DNA of 33,639 nucleotides, taken from contig JAAZFE010000048.1 in the NCBI GenBank assembly GCA_012511885.1, positions 1-33,639 on the forward strand, written 5' to 3'. Shown one piece after another: positions 10,139 through 12,866 of this stretch. Origin of the DNA: Lentisphaerota bacterium (lineage in GTDB: Bacteria; Verrucomicrobiota; Kiritimatiellia; CAIQIC01; Lenti-01). Position 1 is the stretch's first letter. The number at the start of each line of letters is the position of its first letter. The translations under genes were made by a program, and so were the position numbers. Under the pieces are notes generated by a model that worked only from the letters and a program-made list of their open reading frames with translations, was not told where the DNA came from and ran no database searches.

Positions 10139-10750
10139 TCAGGCTTGGCGCGTGGCGGGTTCGGGTCGGGTCGGCTCGGGCGTGTCGGTCAGCAGGAACT
10201 CGACTTGGATTTTGCGGGAGATGGGGAGGATCCAGTCACGATAGATTTCTCGGACGCGTTCGGCGGTGGCGGCGTTGGCCGTTTTTTTGGTCGCGCGGTT
10301 GACGGCGCGTTTGAGGACGTTGGCTTCGACTTCGGGGAGGGTGATGGCTTTTTCCACGCGCTGGGGATCGCCGGCCTCGAGGGCGGTCTGGAGGCGTCTG
10401 GATAACGACGCGCGTTTTTGGTCGGCAACCTGGATGGAGAGGAGCAGGCGCTGGTTGAGGGCGTCGAGGCAGGCCAGATCGGCGGCGGGGGTGGCGTTGG
10501 CCTGGGGCGCATCGCCGCAAAGGATGGGCAGTCCGTAAAGGATGCAGGCCGGATGCAGGATATTGATCCGGGCGGTCAGGGAGCCGGCCTGGACATAGCT
10601 TTGGGCAATGGTTTCGGCGTCGGGGAGGGTATGTCCGTTGTGGCGGTAGTGGCCGGGGTCATAGCCCAAGGCCGCCCGGGCGCAGAGGGTGTCCACAAGG
10701 ATGATGTCGCAGGCGGCGATTTGCTGGCGGAGTTCGTGAAGGGTGGCCAT
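10139..10750 (-). CDS. Chorismate mutase, eukaryotic-type (AroQ-beta-like)
   Basis: LRQQIAACDIILVDTLCARAALGYDPGHYRHNG; CLDALNQRLLLSIQVADQK; C-terminal IYRDWILPISRKIQVEFLL resembles LY..W..PLTKEVEVEYLL of yeast/plant enzymes; directly follows pheA. Confidence 0.75.
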   Translation of the reverse strand: MATLHELRQQIAACDIILVDTLCARAALGYDPGHYRHNGHTLPDAETIAQSYVQAGSLTARINILHPACILYGLPILCGDAPQANATPAADLACLDALNQRLLLSIQVADQKRASLSRRLQTALEAGDPQRVEKAITLPEVEANVLKRAVNRATKKTANAATAERVREIYRDWILPISRKIQVEFLLTDTPEPTRPEPATRQA

Positions 10751-10751
10751 G

Positions 10752-11588
10752 TCAGGTGATGGGATAAGTGCCGAGGATACGGCCTGACTCGGCCAGAGCG
10801 CAAATCATTTTCCACGCGGCTTTGGCGGGTTCGCTTTGCCAATCGGTGACGGCCTCGATGAAAAAGCCGTATTCCCAGGGTCGTCCGGCGAGCGGGCGGC
10901 TTTGGATGAAGGTGAGGTTGACCCCGGCGGCGTCGAAGGGAGAAAGCACGTGGAGGAGGGCGCCGGGGCGGTTGCCGATGACCAGATAGATCAGCGAACG
11001 CACGTCGTTCTTGGCGGTTGAGCGGGGGGGGCGGGTTCTGGCCAGAGTAAAGAAACGGGTGGTGTTTGCGTCGCCATCCTGCACATCGGGACGGAGGATT
11101 TCGAGTCCGTGCAGACGGGCGGCGGTTTCGGAGGCGATGGCGGCGGTGCCGGGCTCGCGCGCGGCCCGTTGGGCGGCGGCGGCGGTGCTGGCCTCGGGGA
11201 TGAAGTCGGCCTTGGGTAGATATTTCTTCTGGAGGTTACGGCACTGGCCCAGAGCCTGCGGGTGGCTGACGACCCGGCGGATGCTCTTCAGCGTAGCGCC
11301 GGGCAGGGCAAGCAGATGCTGGCGCACGGGCACGGAAAAGCTGTCGAGGATGGTCAGGCGCTGATGGCTGGCGAGCTGGTCGAGGGTTTGAGTGACCGGG
11401 CCCTCGATCGAGTTTTCGACCGGCACTATGGCAAGGGGGCGGTCCGTGGCGCGGGTGGCGAGCAGGCGCGCAAAGATGTCGTAATGCGACAGGCAGGGGG
11501 TCAGGCGCGCCTTGTCGCCGAAGCGGCGCTGAGCCGCTTCGTGCGAGTGGGTGCCTTCGGGGCCAAGATAGAAGATGGGGCGAGGCAT
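10752..11588 (-). CDS. pheA: Prephenate dehydratase with C-terminal ACT domain
   Basis: FYLGPEGTHSHEAAQRRF, IVPVENSIEGPV, SHPQALGQC, DGDANTTRFF, ACT-like tail (NRPGALLHVLSPFDAAGVNLTFIQSRP). Confidence 0.95.
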   Translation of the reverse strand: MPRPIFYLGPEGTHSHEAAQRRFGDKARLTPCLSHYDIFARLLATRATDRPLAIVPVENSIEGPVTQTLDQLASHQRLTILDSFSVPVRQHLLALPGATLKSIRRVVSHPQALGQCRNLQKKYLPKADFIPEASTAAAAQRAAREPGTAAIASETAARLHGLEILRPDVQDGDANTTRFFTLARTRPPRSTAKNDVRSLIYLVIGNRPGALLHVLSPFDAAGVNLTFIQSRPLAGRPWEYGFFIEAVTDWQSEPAKAAWKMICALAESGRILGTYPIT

Positions 11589-11603: not shown

Positions 11604-12644
11604 TCAGGAGGTGGTCGGTTGGGGCCGTTGGCGTTCGCGCATGGCCAGTTCGATCCAGGGGGCGAGTTCATCGAGAAATTCGTTGAAGCGTCCGCTTTCG
11701 AGCTGCTGGGCGGCGTCGCTGAAGGCCTTGAGGGGGTCGGGATGGGCTTCGACGATCAGGCCATCGGCGCCGACGGCGAGGGCGGCGCGGGCCAGCGGGG
11801 GAACCAGCCGGCGGGTGCCGGCGGCGTGGGAGGGGTCCACGATGACCGGCAGGTGGGTGAGCTGTTTGGCCACGGCCACCGCGCCGAGATCGAGCAGGTT
11901 GCGCGTGCTGGGGTCGAAGGAGCGCAGGCCGCGCTCGCAGAGGACCACCTGCGGGCAGTTGTTGACAATCAGATATTCGGCGGCGGTGAGCCATTCCTCG
12001 ACGGTGCTGGCGAGGCCGCGTTTGAGCAGCACGGGTTTGCCGGCTTTGGCGATCTGTTCGAGCAGGTCATAGTTCTGGGCATTGCGCGTGCCGATTTGGA
12101 ACATGTCGGCCAAATCCATCAGTGGCTCGATTTTATCGGGGCCGGGCACTTCCGAGACCATGGCCACATCGAATTCCTCGCGGATGCGGCGCATGATGTC
12201 GAGGCCGTCGCTCTTGAGGCCCTGGAAGTCATAGGGTGAGGTGCGGGGTTTGAAAGGCATGGCGCGGATGATGCGGACGCCGCTTTCGGTGAGGTCGCGG
12301 ACAGCGGCATGGAACTGCTCATAGGTTTCGATGGCGCAGGGGCCGGCCATGATGGTGATGTTGCCGTTGCCGATTTTGACGTCGCGCACCTGCACGACGG
12401 AGTCGGTCGAGTGATACTCGCGCGAGACGAGCTTGAATTTCTTTTGAACGGGCAGGACGGCCTCGACGGCGGGCAGGTTCTCGAGGATCGAGAGGGACTG
12501 CAGGTTGAGCTCGTCGCCGATACAGGCCACGACGGTCTGTTCGGTGCCGCGGATGACGCGCGGCTGATAGCGCAGGGTGGTGACCATTTCGCTGACGGAG
12601 GCCACATCGGCGTCGCTGCTATTGCGTTTCAGAACGATAATCAT
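11604..12644 (-). CDS. aroF: 3-deoxy-7-phosphoheptulonate synthase (DAHP synthase, type I-beta with N-terminal regulatory domain)
   Basis: MAGPCAIETYEQ, FKPRTSPYDFQGL, VSEVPGPDK, LLKRGLASTVEEWLTAAEY, VIVDPSHAAGTR. Confidence 0.95.
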   Translation of the reverse strand: MIIVLKRNSSDADVASVSEMVTTLRYQPRVIRGTEQTVVACIGDELNLQSLSILENLPAVEAVLPVQKKFKLVSREYHSTDSVVQVRDVKIGNGNITIMAGPCAIETYEQFHAAVRDLTESGVRIIRAMPFKPRTSPYDFQGLKSDGLDIMRRIREEFDVAMVSEVPGPDKIEPLMDLADMFQIGTRNAQNYDLLEQIAKAGKPVLLKRGLASTVEEWLTAAEYLIVNNCPQVVLCERGLRSFDPSTRNLLDLGAVAVAKQLTHLPVIVDPSHAAGTRRLVPPLARAALAVGADGLIVEAHPDPLKAFSDAAQQLESGRFNEFLDELAPWIELAMRERQRPQPTTS

Positions 12645-12696: not shown

Positions 12697-12732
12697 CAAA
12701 AAATCCGCGCATCCATTTCGCCGGACACGCGG
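12697..12732 (-). terminator. Intrinsic terminator in the aroF leader (attenuator terminator)
   Basis: Minus strand CCGCGTGTCC-GGCGAAAT-GGATGCGCGG followed by ATTTTTTG: 10-bp stem (two GU pairs), 8-nt loop, T6 run; about 50 nt before the aroF ATG. Confidence 0.8.
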
Positions 12733-12789
12733 TTTCGGAAGGACTACCGGCAATAGCTCACCGGGTCGCTCCGGACCGTGCGTCCGGCG
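12719..12789 (-). promoter_or_regulatory. Antiterminator stem of a putative attenuator upstream of aroF
   Basis: CGCCGGACGCACGGT (12789-12775) pairs with ACCGCGTGTCCGGCG (12733-12719) at 14 of 15 positions. The second arm contains the 5' arm of the terminator, so the structures are mutually exclusive. Confidence 0.72.
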
Positions 12790-12829
12790 ACCTAAAGGTG
12801 AAGCTAAAATAGACCTTCCAGTGGTTCAC
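12758..12829 (-). CDS. Putative attenuator leader peptide (V/M)NHWKVYFSFTFRSPDARSGATR
   Basis: GTG-initiated 23-codon ORF with Trp, Tyr and three Phe codons clustered at codons 4-12, just upstream of the antiterminator arm; no clear SD. Confidence 0.6.
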   Translation of the reverse strand: MNHWKVYFSFTFRSPDARSGATR

Positions 12830-12866
12830 GGTCGAAAATCAACCACACCCCCTTGGGGTTGTCAAA

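Follow-up and report, generated by a model that had tools for sequence, protein, structure and literature searches.

What controls the aroF operon of a Lentisphaerota bacterium from the class Kiritimatiellia? On the minus strand of the stretch analysed here (the window, a contig of 33,639 nucleotides), the interval between a DUF3108 gene and aroF holds a short open reading frame with clustered aromatic codons, followed by a hairpin and a run of T residues. A sequence-only reading of the window had taken this arrangement for a transcription attenuator. Having followed that proposal into related genomes, into folding models and into the literature, we consider it very probable that the element is a ribosome-mediated transcription attenuator which senses charged tRNA-Phe, probably also charged tRNA-Tyr, and which controls the aroF-pheA-chorismate mutase operon. 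The locus has the parts by which such attenuators are recognised: an aromatic leader ORF, an operon for the cognate amino acid (pheA alone in family f23), an intrinsic terminator and an alternative antiterminator.

The operon and its leader ORF

Domain and family matches confirmed the gene set that had been named from the sequence, and nadB comes after the chorismate mutase gene.

11604-12644, minus strand: aroF, class I-beta DAHP synthase with a ferredoxin-like N-terminal domain (PF00793, PF18152, NF006421)
10752-11588, minus strand: pheA, prephenate dehydratase (PF00800, NF008865)
10139-10750, minus strand: chorismate mutase type II (PF01817)

The order of the window, aroF and then pheA, recurs in the f34 and f12 loci that were read. 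The window's genome has a second DAHP synthase gene (L211, G000:C99:350-890); the sequence read upstream of it shows no aromatic leader ORF, and the two DAHP synthase isoenzymes of this genome may be differently controlled.

The leader ORF, described as 23 codons beginning with GTG, has exactly the codon sequence reported: from 12829 to 12758 on the minus strand it reads GTG AAC CAC TGG AAG GTC TAT TTT AGC TTC ACC TTT AGG TCG CCG GAC GCA CGG TCC GGA GCG ACC CGG TGA, which translates to (M)NHWKVYFSFTFRSPDARSGATR.

12758-12829, minus strand: leader ORF, GTG to TGA, 23 codons, MNHWKVYFSFTFRSPDARSGATR (sequence reading and orthologs)
12794-12811, minus strand: control codons Tyr7 Phe8 Ser9 Phe10 Thr11 Phe12 (ortholog comparison)

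The cluster of W, Y and F codons reported for codons 4-12 is there, with Trp4 and four Phe or Tyr codons among codons 7-12, but it is not extreme when taken alone. It goes beyond chance because it is conserved in orthologs, and not by virtue of the count in the window.

Conservation of the leader in the class Kiritimatiellia

A search for DAHP synthase in 346 Kiritimatiellia genomes gave 48 close orthologs at E<=1e-165, and the upstream regions of 47 were read (G150 was left out). The leader stands before 44 of these 47 aroF genes, and in two genomes of family f23 it stands directly before pheA; it was not found upstream of aroF in the three family f33 genomes among the 47. In G046, an f23 genome in which the leader directly precedes pheA, no class I-beta DAHP synthase was detected at E<=1e-30. 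A leader placed before pheA where aroF is absent ties the element to phenylalanine supply. All 46 leaders have a short Phe/Tyr-rich ORF and then a stem-loop with a T-run; the terminators of G141 and G143 fell below the threshold of our script and were recognised by eye. The leader peptides are of several types, with those of group A (the window's family) like MNLQRYYFSFIFRSPDARSGSAR, those of group B (f34) like MNSKRVYFYFSYFRSPDTRFGSAR and those of group C (f12) like MNRYFSFGFYFGPRAARPSR.

A covariance model built on groups A and B recovers the leader across the class. Its weak matches (E above about 1e-9) were mostly rejected as tRNA-Asp genes with their terminators (L114-L116) or as unrelated terminators of the same style, and its matches on the opposite strand arise because the stems are palindromic. 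At L114, L115 and L116, terminators of the form AACCGCG...CGCGGTTTT lie behind the tRNA-Asp genes, a terminator style that recurs in the class.

Across the 46 orthologous leaders the enrichment in aromatic codons is conserved and is confined to the ORF frame, which encodes per leader 4.2 aromatic residues in group A, 6.8 in B, 6.0 in B2, 5.9 in C, 6.0 in f31 (one leader) and 4.5 in f23, against 0-2.8 in the other two frames. Tyr and Phe exchange for one another between species at leader codons with the frame kept, as are the places of the start and stop codons. The start codon is ATG in 39 leaders and GTG in 7, a tally of 46 that leaves out one f20 leader, which was set aside. The GTG start of the window, counted earlier as a weak point, is mostly answered by the ATG that stands at the same place in some orthologs.

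Within family f1, to which the window belongs, Phe10 and Phe12 are invariant in all 11 leaders, and two of these (G010 and G015) have only two Phe codons left and no Tyr codon. The stretch TTCAYCTTTAG (12794-12804 in the window) is fixed in 11/11 f1 leaders, wobble positions included, and this is beyond what the choice or the sensing of Phe codons alone explains or requires. Such very high nucleotide conservation in f1, which extends over the RNA arms called regions 1-3 below, would suit an RNA that mainly binds a protein, a tRNA or a small molecule and controls the terminator in the manner of a riboswitch or T-box, with the ORF incidental. We regard this as very unlikely, since an incidental ORF would not stay open, hold its start and stop in fixed places and interchange Tyr and Phe in frame. 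Moreover, no Rfam family, T-box, Phe_leader and Trp_leader included, matched the window or 12 related loci at gathering score. A single sub-threshold match, to Giardia U4 at E 1.6, was put down to chance.

A conserved -35 box and the predicted start of transcription

The sequence-only reading had noted that neither a Shine-Dalgarno site nor a promoter was evident. A conserved TTGAC box largely meets these doubts. It lies 35-45 nt 5' of the leader start codon in 42/46 leaders (36 nt in the window) and is invariant across the window's family, but the -10 element is still poor.

12860-12865, minus strand: -35 box TTGACA of the leader promoter, one base past the DUF3108 stop codon (conserved TTGAC)
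12837-12842, minus strand: probable -10 element TTGATT behind TGG (12845-12843), 17 nt from the -35 box (inferred from spacing)

The TTGATT of the window matches TATAAT at 3/6 positions. At the -10 region TGGTT is invariant in family f1, and other groups have TTTAAT or TATTAT there. The leaders that have no TTGAC box (G139, G141, G142 and G143) are close relatives within group C.

From the spacing of the TTGAC box, transcription is predicted to start at ~12830, at the leader start codon or a few nt before it, which suggests that the ORF is leaderless or nearly so; the 36-nt spacing of the window would place the 5' end at the start codon itself, as in a leaderless message. On such a message no Shine-Dalgarno site is expected. 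If the ORF is leaderless, as promoter spacing suggests, this would be attenuation without a Shine-Dalgarno site.

The terminator and its competing RNA arms

The clean intrinsic terminator that had been described, CCGCGTGTCC/GGATGCGCGG with six T residues, was recovered by a terminator scan at 12732-12698, and the arms that compete for its 5' side were delimited as follows.

12775-12792, minus strand: region 1 (GGTCGCCGGACGCACGGT), within the ORF, which pairs with region 2 or region 3 (folding and homologs)
12764-12776, minus strand: region 2 (GTCCGGAGCGACC), at the ORF end, which forms a protector hairpin with region 1 or, in the antiterminator, a helix with region 2' (folding)
12736-12751, minus strand: region 2' (GCCGGTAGTCCTTCCG), past the stop codon, which pairs with region 2 within the 1:3 hairpin (folding)
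12723-12733, minus strand: region 3 (ACCGCGTGTCC), the 5' arm of the terminator and alternative partner of region 1 (folding, pairing, covariation)
12698-12732, minus strand: intrinsic terminator, with a stem at 12732-12705 (region 3 with region 4, GGATGCGCGG) and a T-run at 12703-12698 (terminator scan, covariation)

The leader of 146 nt folds better than 200/200 dinucleotide shuffles (z -3.9). The proposed pairing of CGCCGGACGCACGGT (12789-12775) with ACCGCGTGTCCGGCG (12733-12719) is complementary, but with one A.C mismatch. Folding also brought out two elements absent from the earlier description, a hairpin wholly inside the ORF (GGTCG-CCGGAC / GTCCGG-AG-CGACC, 12792-12764) and, formed by regions 2 and 2', a helix of CCCGG with CCGG that spans the stop codon; on inspection, the 2:2' pairing is preserved despite changes in orthologs. 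Region 1 pairs with region 3 more strongly than dinucleotide shuffles of the ORF tail do, with z about -4 and p 0.002 in the window, this p being the floor for 500 shuffles, and with a median z of -3.1 over 45-46 leaders.

On a rival account, the hairpin would do no more than terminate transcription of the upstream DUF3108 gene, and the ORF would have arisen by chance. Stems of the AACCGCG...CGCGGTTTT kind are common in these genomes, where they appear as weak model matches behind tRNA-Asp and other genes. We nevertheless judge this account extremely unlikely. The -35 box, the ORF and the terminator keep their order before aroF and the sequence farther upstream varies between orthologs, the complementarity between ORF tail and terminator arm exceeds that of shuffles, and aromatic ORFs of this kind are scarce where no DAHP synthase gene is near. 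When 1.63 Mb of fetched sequence was scanned on both strands, short ORFs with at least five F/Y/W in eight codons proved to be mostly DAHP synthase leaders, and the remaining ones came mainly from AT-rich loci of other phyla.

Covariation and lineage-matched pairing

For covariation, 29 distinct leaders from A, B, B2, f31 and f23 were compared together, and group C was handled apart. The sequence-only reading had called for covariation in both stems. For the terminator this was borne out: 97.6% of cells preserve the helix, and none of 500 shuffles reached its covariation. For the 1:3 antiterminator it was not: 92.4% of cells preserve the helix, but double changes are few and, since most positions show no variation at all, the covariation score is no higher than in shuffles. 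Pairing in the 1:2 hairpin is preserved in 91.5% of cells of the same 29 leaders. The 1:3 helix has two double-changed pairs in the 29 leaders and three in group C, where 91.5% of cells preserve it. Since related sequences were counted separately, such counts lend support but do not stand for independent events. Three replacements are telling. Two of them are a C to U in region 1 with a G to A in region 3 that retains the pairing of region 4 (G186/G187), and a concerted change in regions 1, 3 and 4 (G148). The third lies beyond the terminator stem, where C-G gives way to U-G in G139/G141 and to U-A in G142/G143.

When the ORF tail of one group was paired with the terminator arm of another, in a comparison of A/B with C, each tail paired best with the arm of its own group. 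The duplex energies were -29.6 kcal/mol for A x A, -27.6 kcal/mol for B x B and -22.9 kcal/mol for C x C, against -15.4 kcal/mol for B x C.

The C-terminal part of the leader peptide, RSPDxRSGSAR, is conserved in groups A and B, as it might be if a small functional peptide, or a terminated RNA acting in trans, were the main product and attenuation secondary; rnTrpL/peTrpL of Sinorhizobium meliloti offers a precedent in the literature (PMC7298713). This seems to us very unlikely indeed. The conserved part overlaps regions 1 and 2, whose codons are constrained by pairing, and the end of the group C peptide is unrelated (GPRAARPSR), yet the pairing logic is retained there. A role in trans would in any case add to attenuation, not replace it.

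Ribosome position and the proposed mechanism

Nascent RNA was folded to the end of region 3 with the part covered by the ribosome omitted. The switch logic that had been claimed, in which a stalled ribosome leads to antitermination and reading through the ORF leads to termination, is supported by this folding model in its direction in 46/46 leaders, and against a shuffle control in A (the window's group), B, f31 and f23 only. For groups A and B the model predicts that region 3 is sequestered with a mean probability of about 0.8-0.9 when the ribosome is on the control codons and of about 0.35 when it has moved past them. The control, in which the tail was shuffled, was added because a shorter RNA pairs less anyway; the switch was not above shuffles in the divergent subgroups C and B2 at the codon tested. 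In group C, region 1 starts closer to the aromatic cluster, so that it stays open only with the ribosome on the earlier aromatic codons. With region 4 included, equilibrium folding lets the terminator win in several orthologs at every ribosome position, and the decision must therefore be assumed to be kinetic, taken during transcription as in known attenuators.

We propose that transcription begins at the leader start codon or a few nt before it, and that a ribosome would load on the leaderless, or nearly leaderless, message. Were Phe or Tyr short, this ribosome would stall on the codons from Tyr7 to Phe12 and leave region 1 open, and region 1 would pair with region 3 once the latter had been made, with regions 2 and 2' folded inside the long hairpin. 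Held in this way by region 1, region 3 could not pair with region 4, and RNA polymerase would continue into aroF. Were Phe and Tyr plentiful, the ribosome would mask region 1 as it moved on to the stop codon, or would leave, in which case region 2 would tie up region 1. Region 3 would then be free to pair with region 4, and transcription would end at about 12698.

Relation to known attenuators

The pheA and trp attenuators of E. coli have a leader peptide rich in the amino acid that the operon produces, and the position of the ribosome selects the antiterminator or the terminator. The element described here resembles them in its leader peptide, rich in the product amino acid, and in the proposed choice of structure by ribosome position. 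It differs in that the arm which pairs with the 5' arm of the terminator is part of the leader ORF and follows the control codons directly, in that the ORF appears leaderless, in an operon that starts with DAHP synthase, in its phylum and in having no sequence match to Rfam leaders. It would share its logic with the pheA, trp and his attenuators (PMC1183508).

For the gene, the nearest precedent is uORFC-13-1, a motif upstream of aroF in Acholeplasma that is a computational prediction and that its authors describe from Acholeplasma and environmental sequences only (PMC8632094). As here, a promoter, a short ORF with one or more Phe codons and an intrinsic terminator are predicted before a DAHP synthase gene. 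Compared by description, uORFC-13-1 is unlike the present leader in belonging to Mollicutes, in having a ribosome-binding site according to its authors and in containing at least one Phe codon (PMC8632094). A precedent for a leaderless leader ORF is rnTrpL, the trp attenuator of S. meliloti, an RNA that starts at the ATG and stops at the attenuator (PMC7298713). That system senses Trp and belongs to another operon and phylum, and its 5' end was determined experimentally, whereas the one proposed here comes from promoter spacing (PMC7298713).

At the time of a 2010 survey, leader-peptide systems were known only in Proteobacteria and Actinobacteria, to which the survey added bacilli (PMC2965389). 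In the open literature we found no leader-peptide attenuation for Verrucomicrobia or Planctomycetes, which is weak evidence of novelty, as subscription papers lay mostly outside the scope of the search. Judged by its sequence, the element is very probably a real attenuator; its mechanism would be classical, and its occurrence is new to this phylum as far as the searchable literature goes. With it, a class that is known mostly from metagenomes gains a predicted switch for sensing amino acids whose parts are defined.

Aromatic leaders at other DAHP synthase genes

Upstream regions of 72 further DAHP synthase genes of the phylum were screened; 22 had an aromatic ORF and, under a strict filter, 16 of these had a terminator as well; the reverse complements of the 72 regions gave 0/72. 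Aromatic leaders occur in other families of Verrucomicrobiota, and they were also seen in Planctomycetota, Syntrophales/Deltaproteobacteria and Peregrinibacteria, next to the Acholeplasma case. On this account we lean slightly towards the view that aromatic-codon leader-peptide attenuation is a widespread and repeatedly remodelled control of class I-beta DAHP synthase in the Planctomycetes-Verrucomicrobia group and beyond. Leaders outside the 46 were analysed at lesser depth.

In Verrucomicrobiota, aromatic leaders with terminators lie before other DAHP synthase genes at L202, L204, L207, L209, L217, L220, L225, L238, L241, L242, L243, L183, L248, L251 and L253, and the sequences of these fifteen are unlike that of the window's leader. 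The Planctomycetota leaders at L074 (Aeoliella straminimaris), MANKFWYYFWFSFTRPGSGAGGCA, and L075, MSNKYRYFWFSFTPPGSGAGGDA, stand about 125-250 nt before the DAHP synthase gene, and behind each comes a strong terminator with a 5' arm that is apparently complementary to the ORF end. DAHP synthase leaders of Syntrophales/Deltaproteobacteria (L062, L063, L065, L066, L082 and L083), such as MKSNYFSYYYWYFYMEICPLSRVG, are followed by terminator-like hairpins. On a contig labelled Woesearchaeota (archaea), MQNNSISQELSSFYFFGYYF lies upstream of 3001 in L069, 66 nt before a duplicated DAHP synthase gene; it has no terminator, is possibly due to chance and was left uncounted. A Peregrinibacteria contig has MNNRIKNTFFYFYFFAD before a DAHP synthase gene (L077, upstream of 2478). 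Finally, a member of the window's own family (G004, L024) carries MSRWYQFSYAYSFAFAGGAGSRTPE on the minus strand, in an ORF ending near 1410 of the reversed locus, before a distant DAHP synthase of 41% identity.
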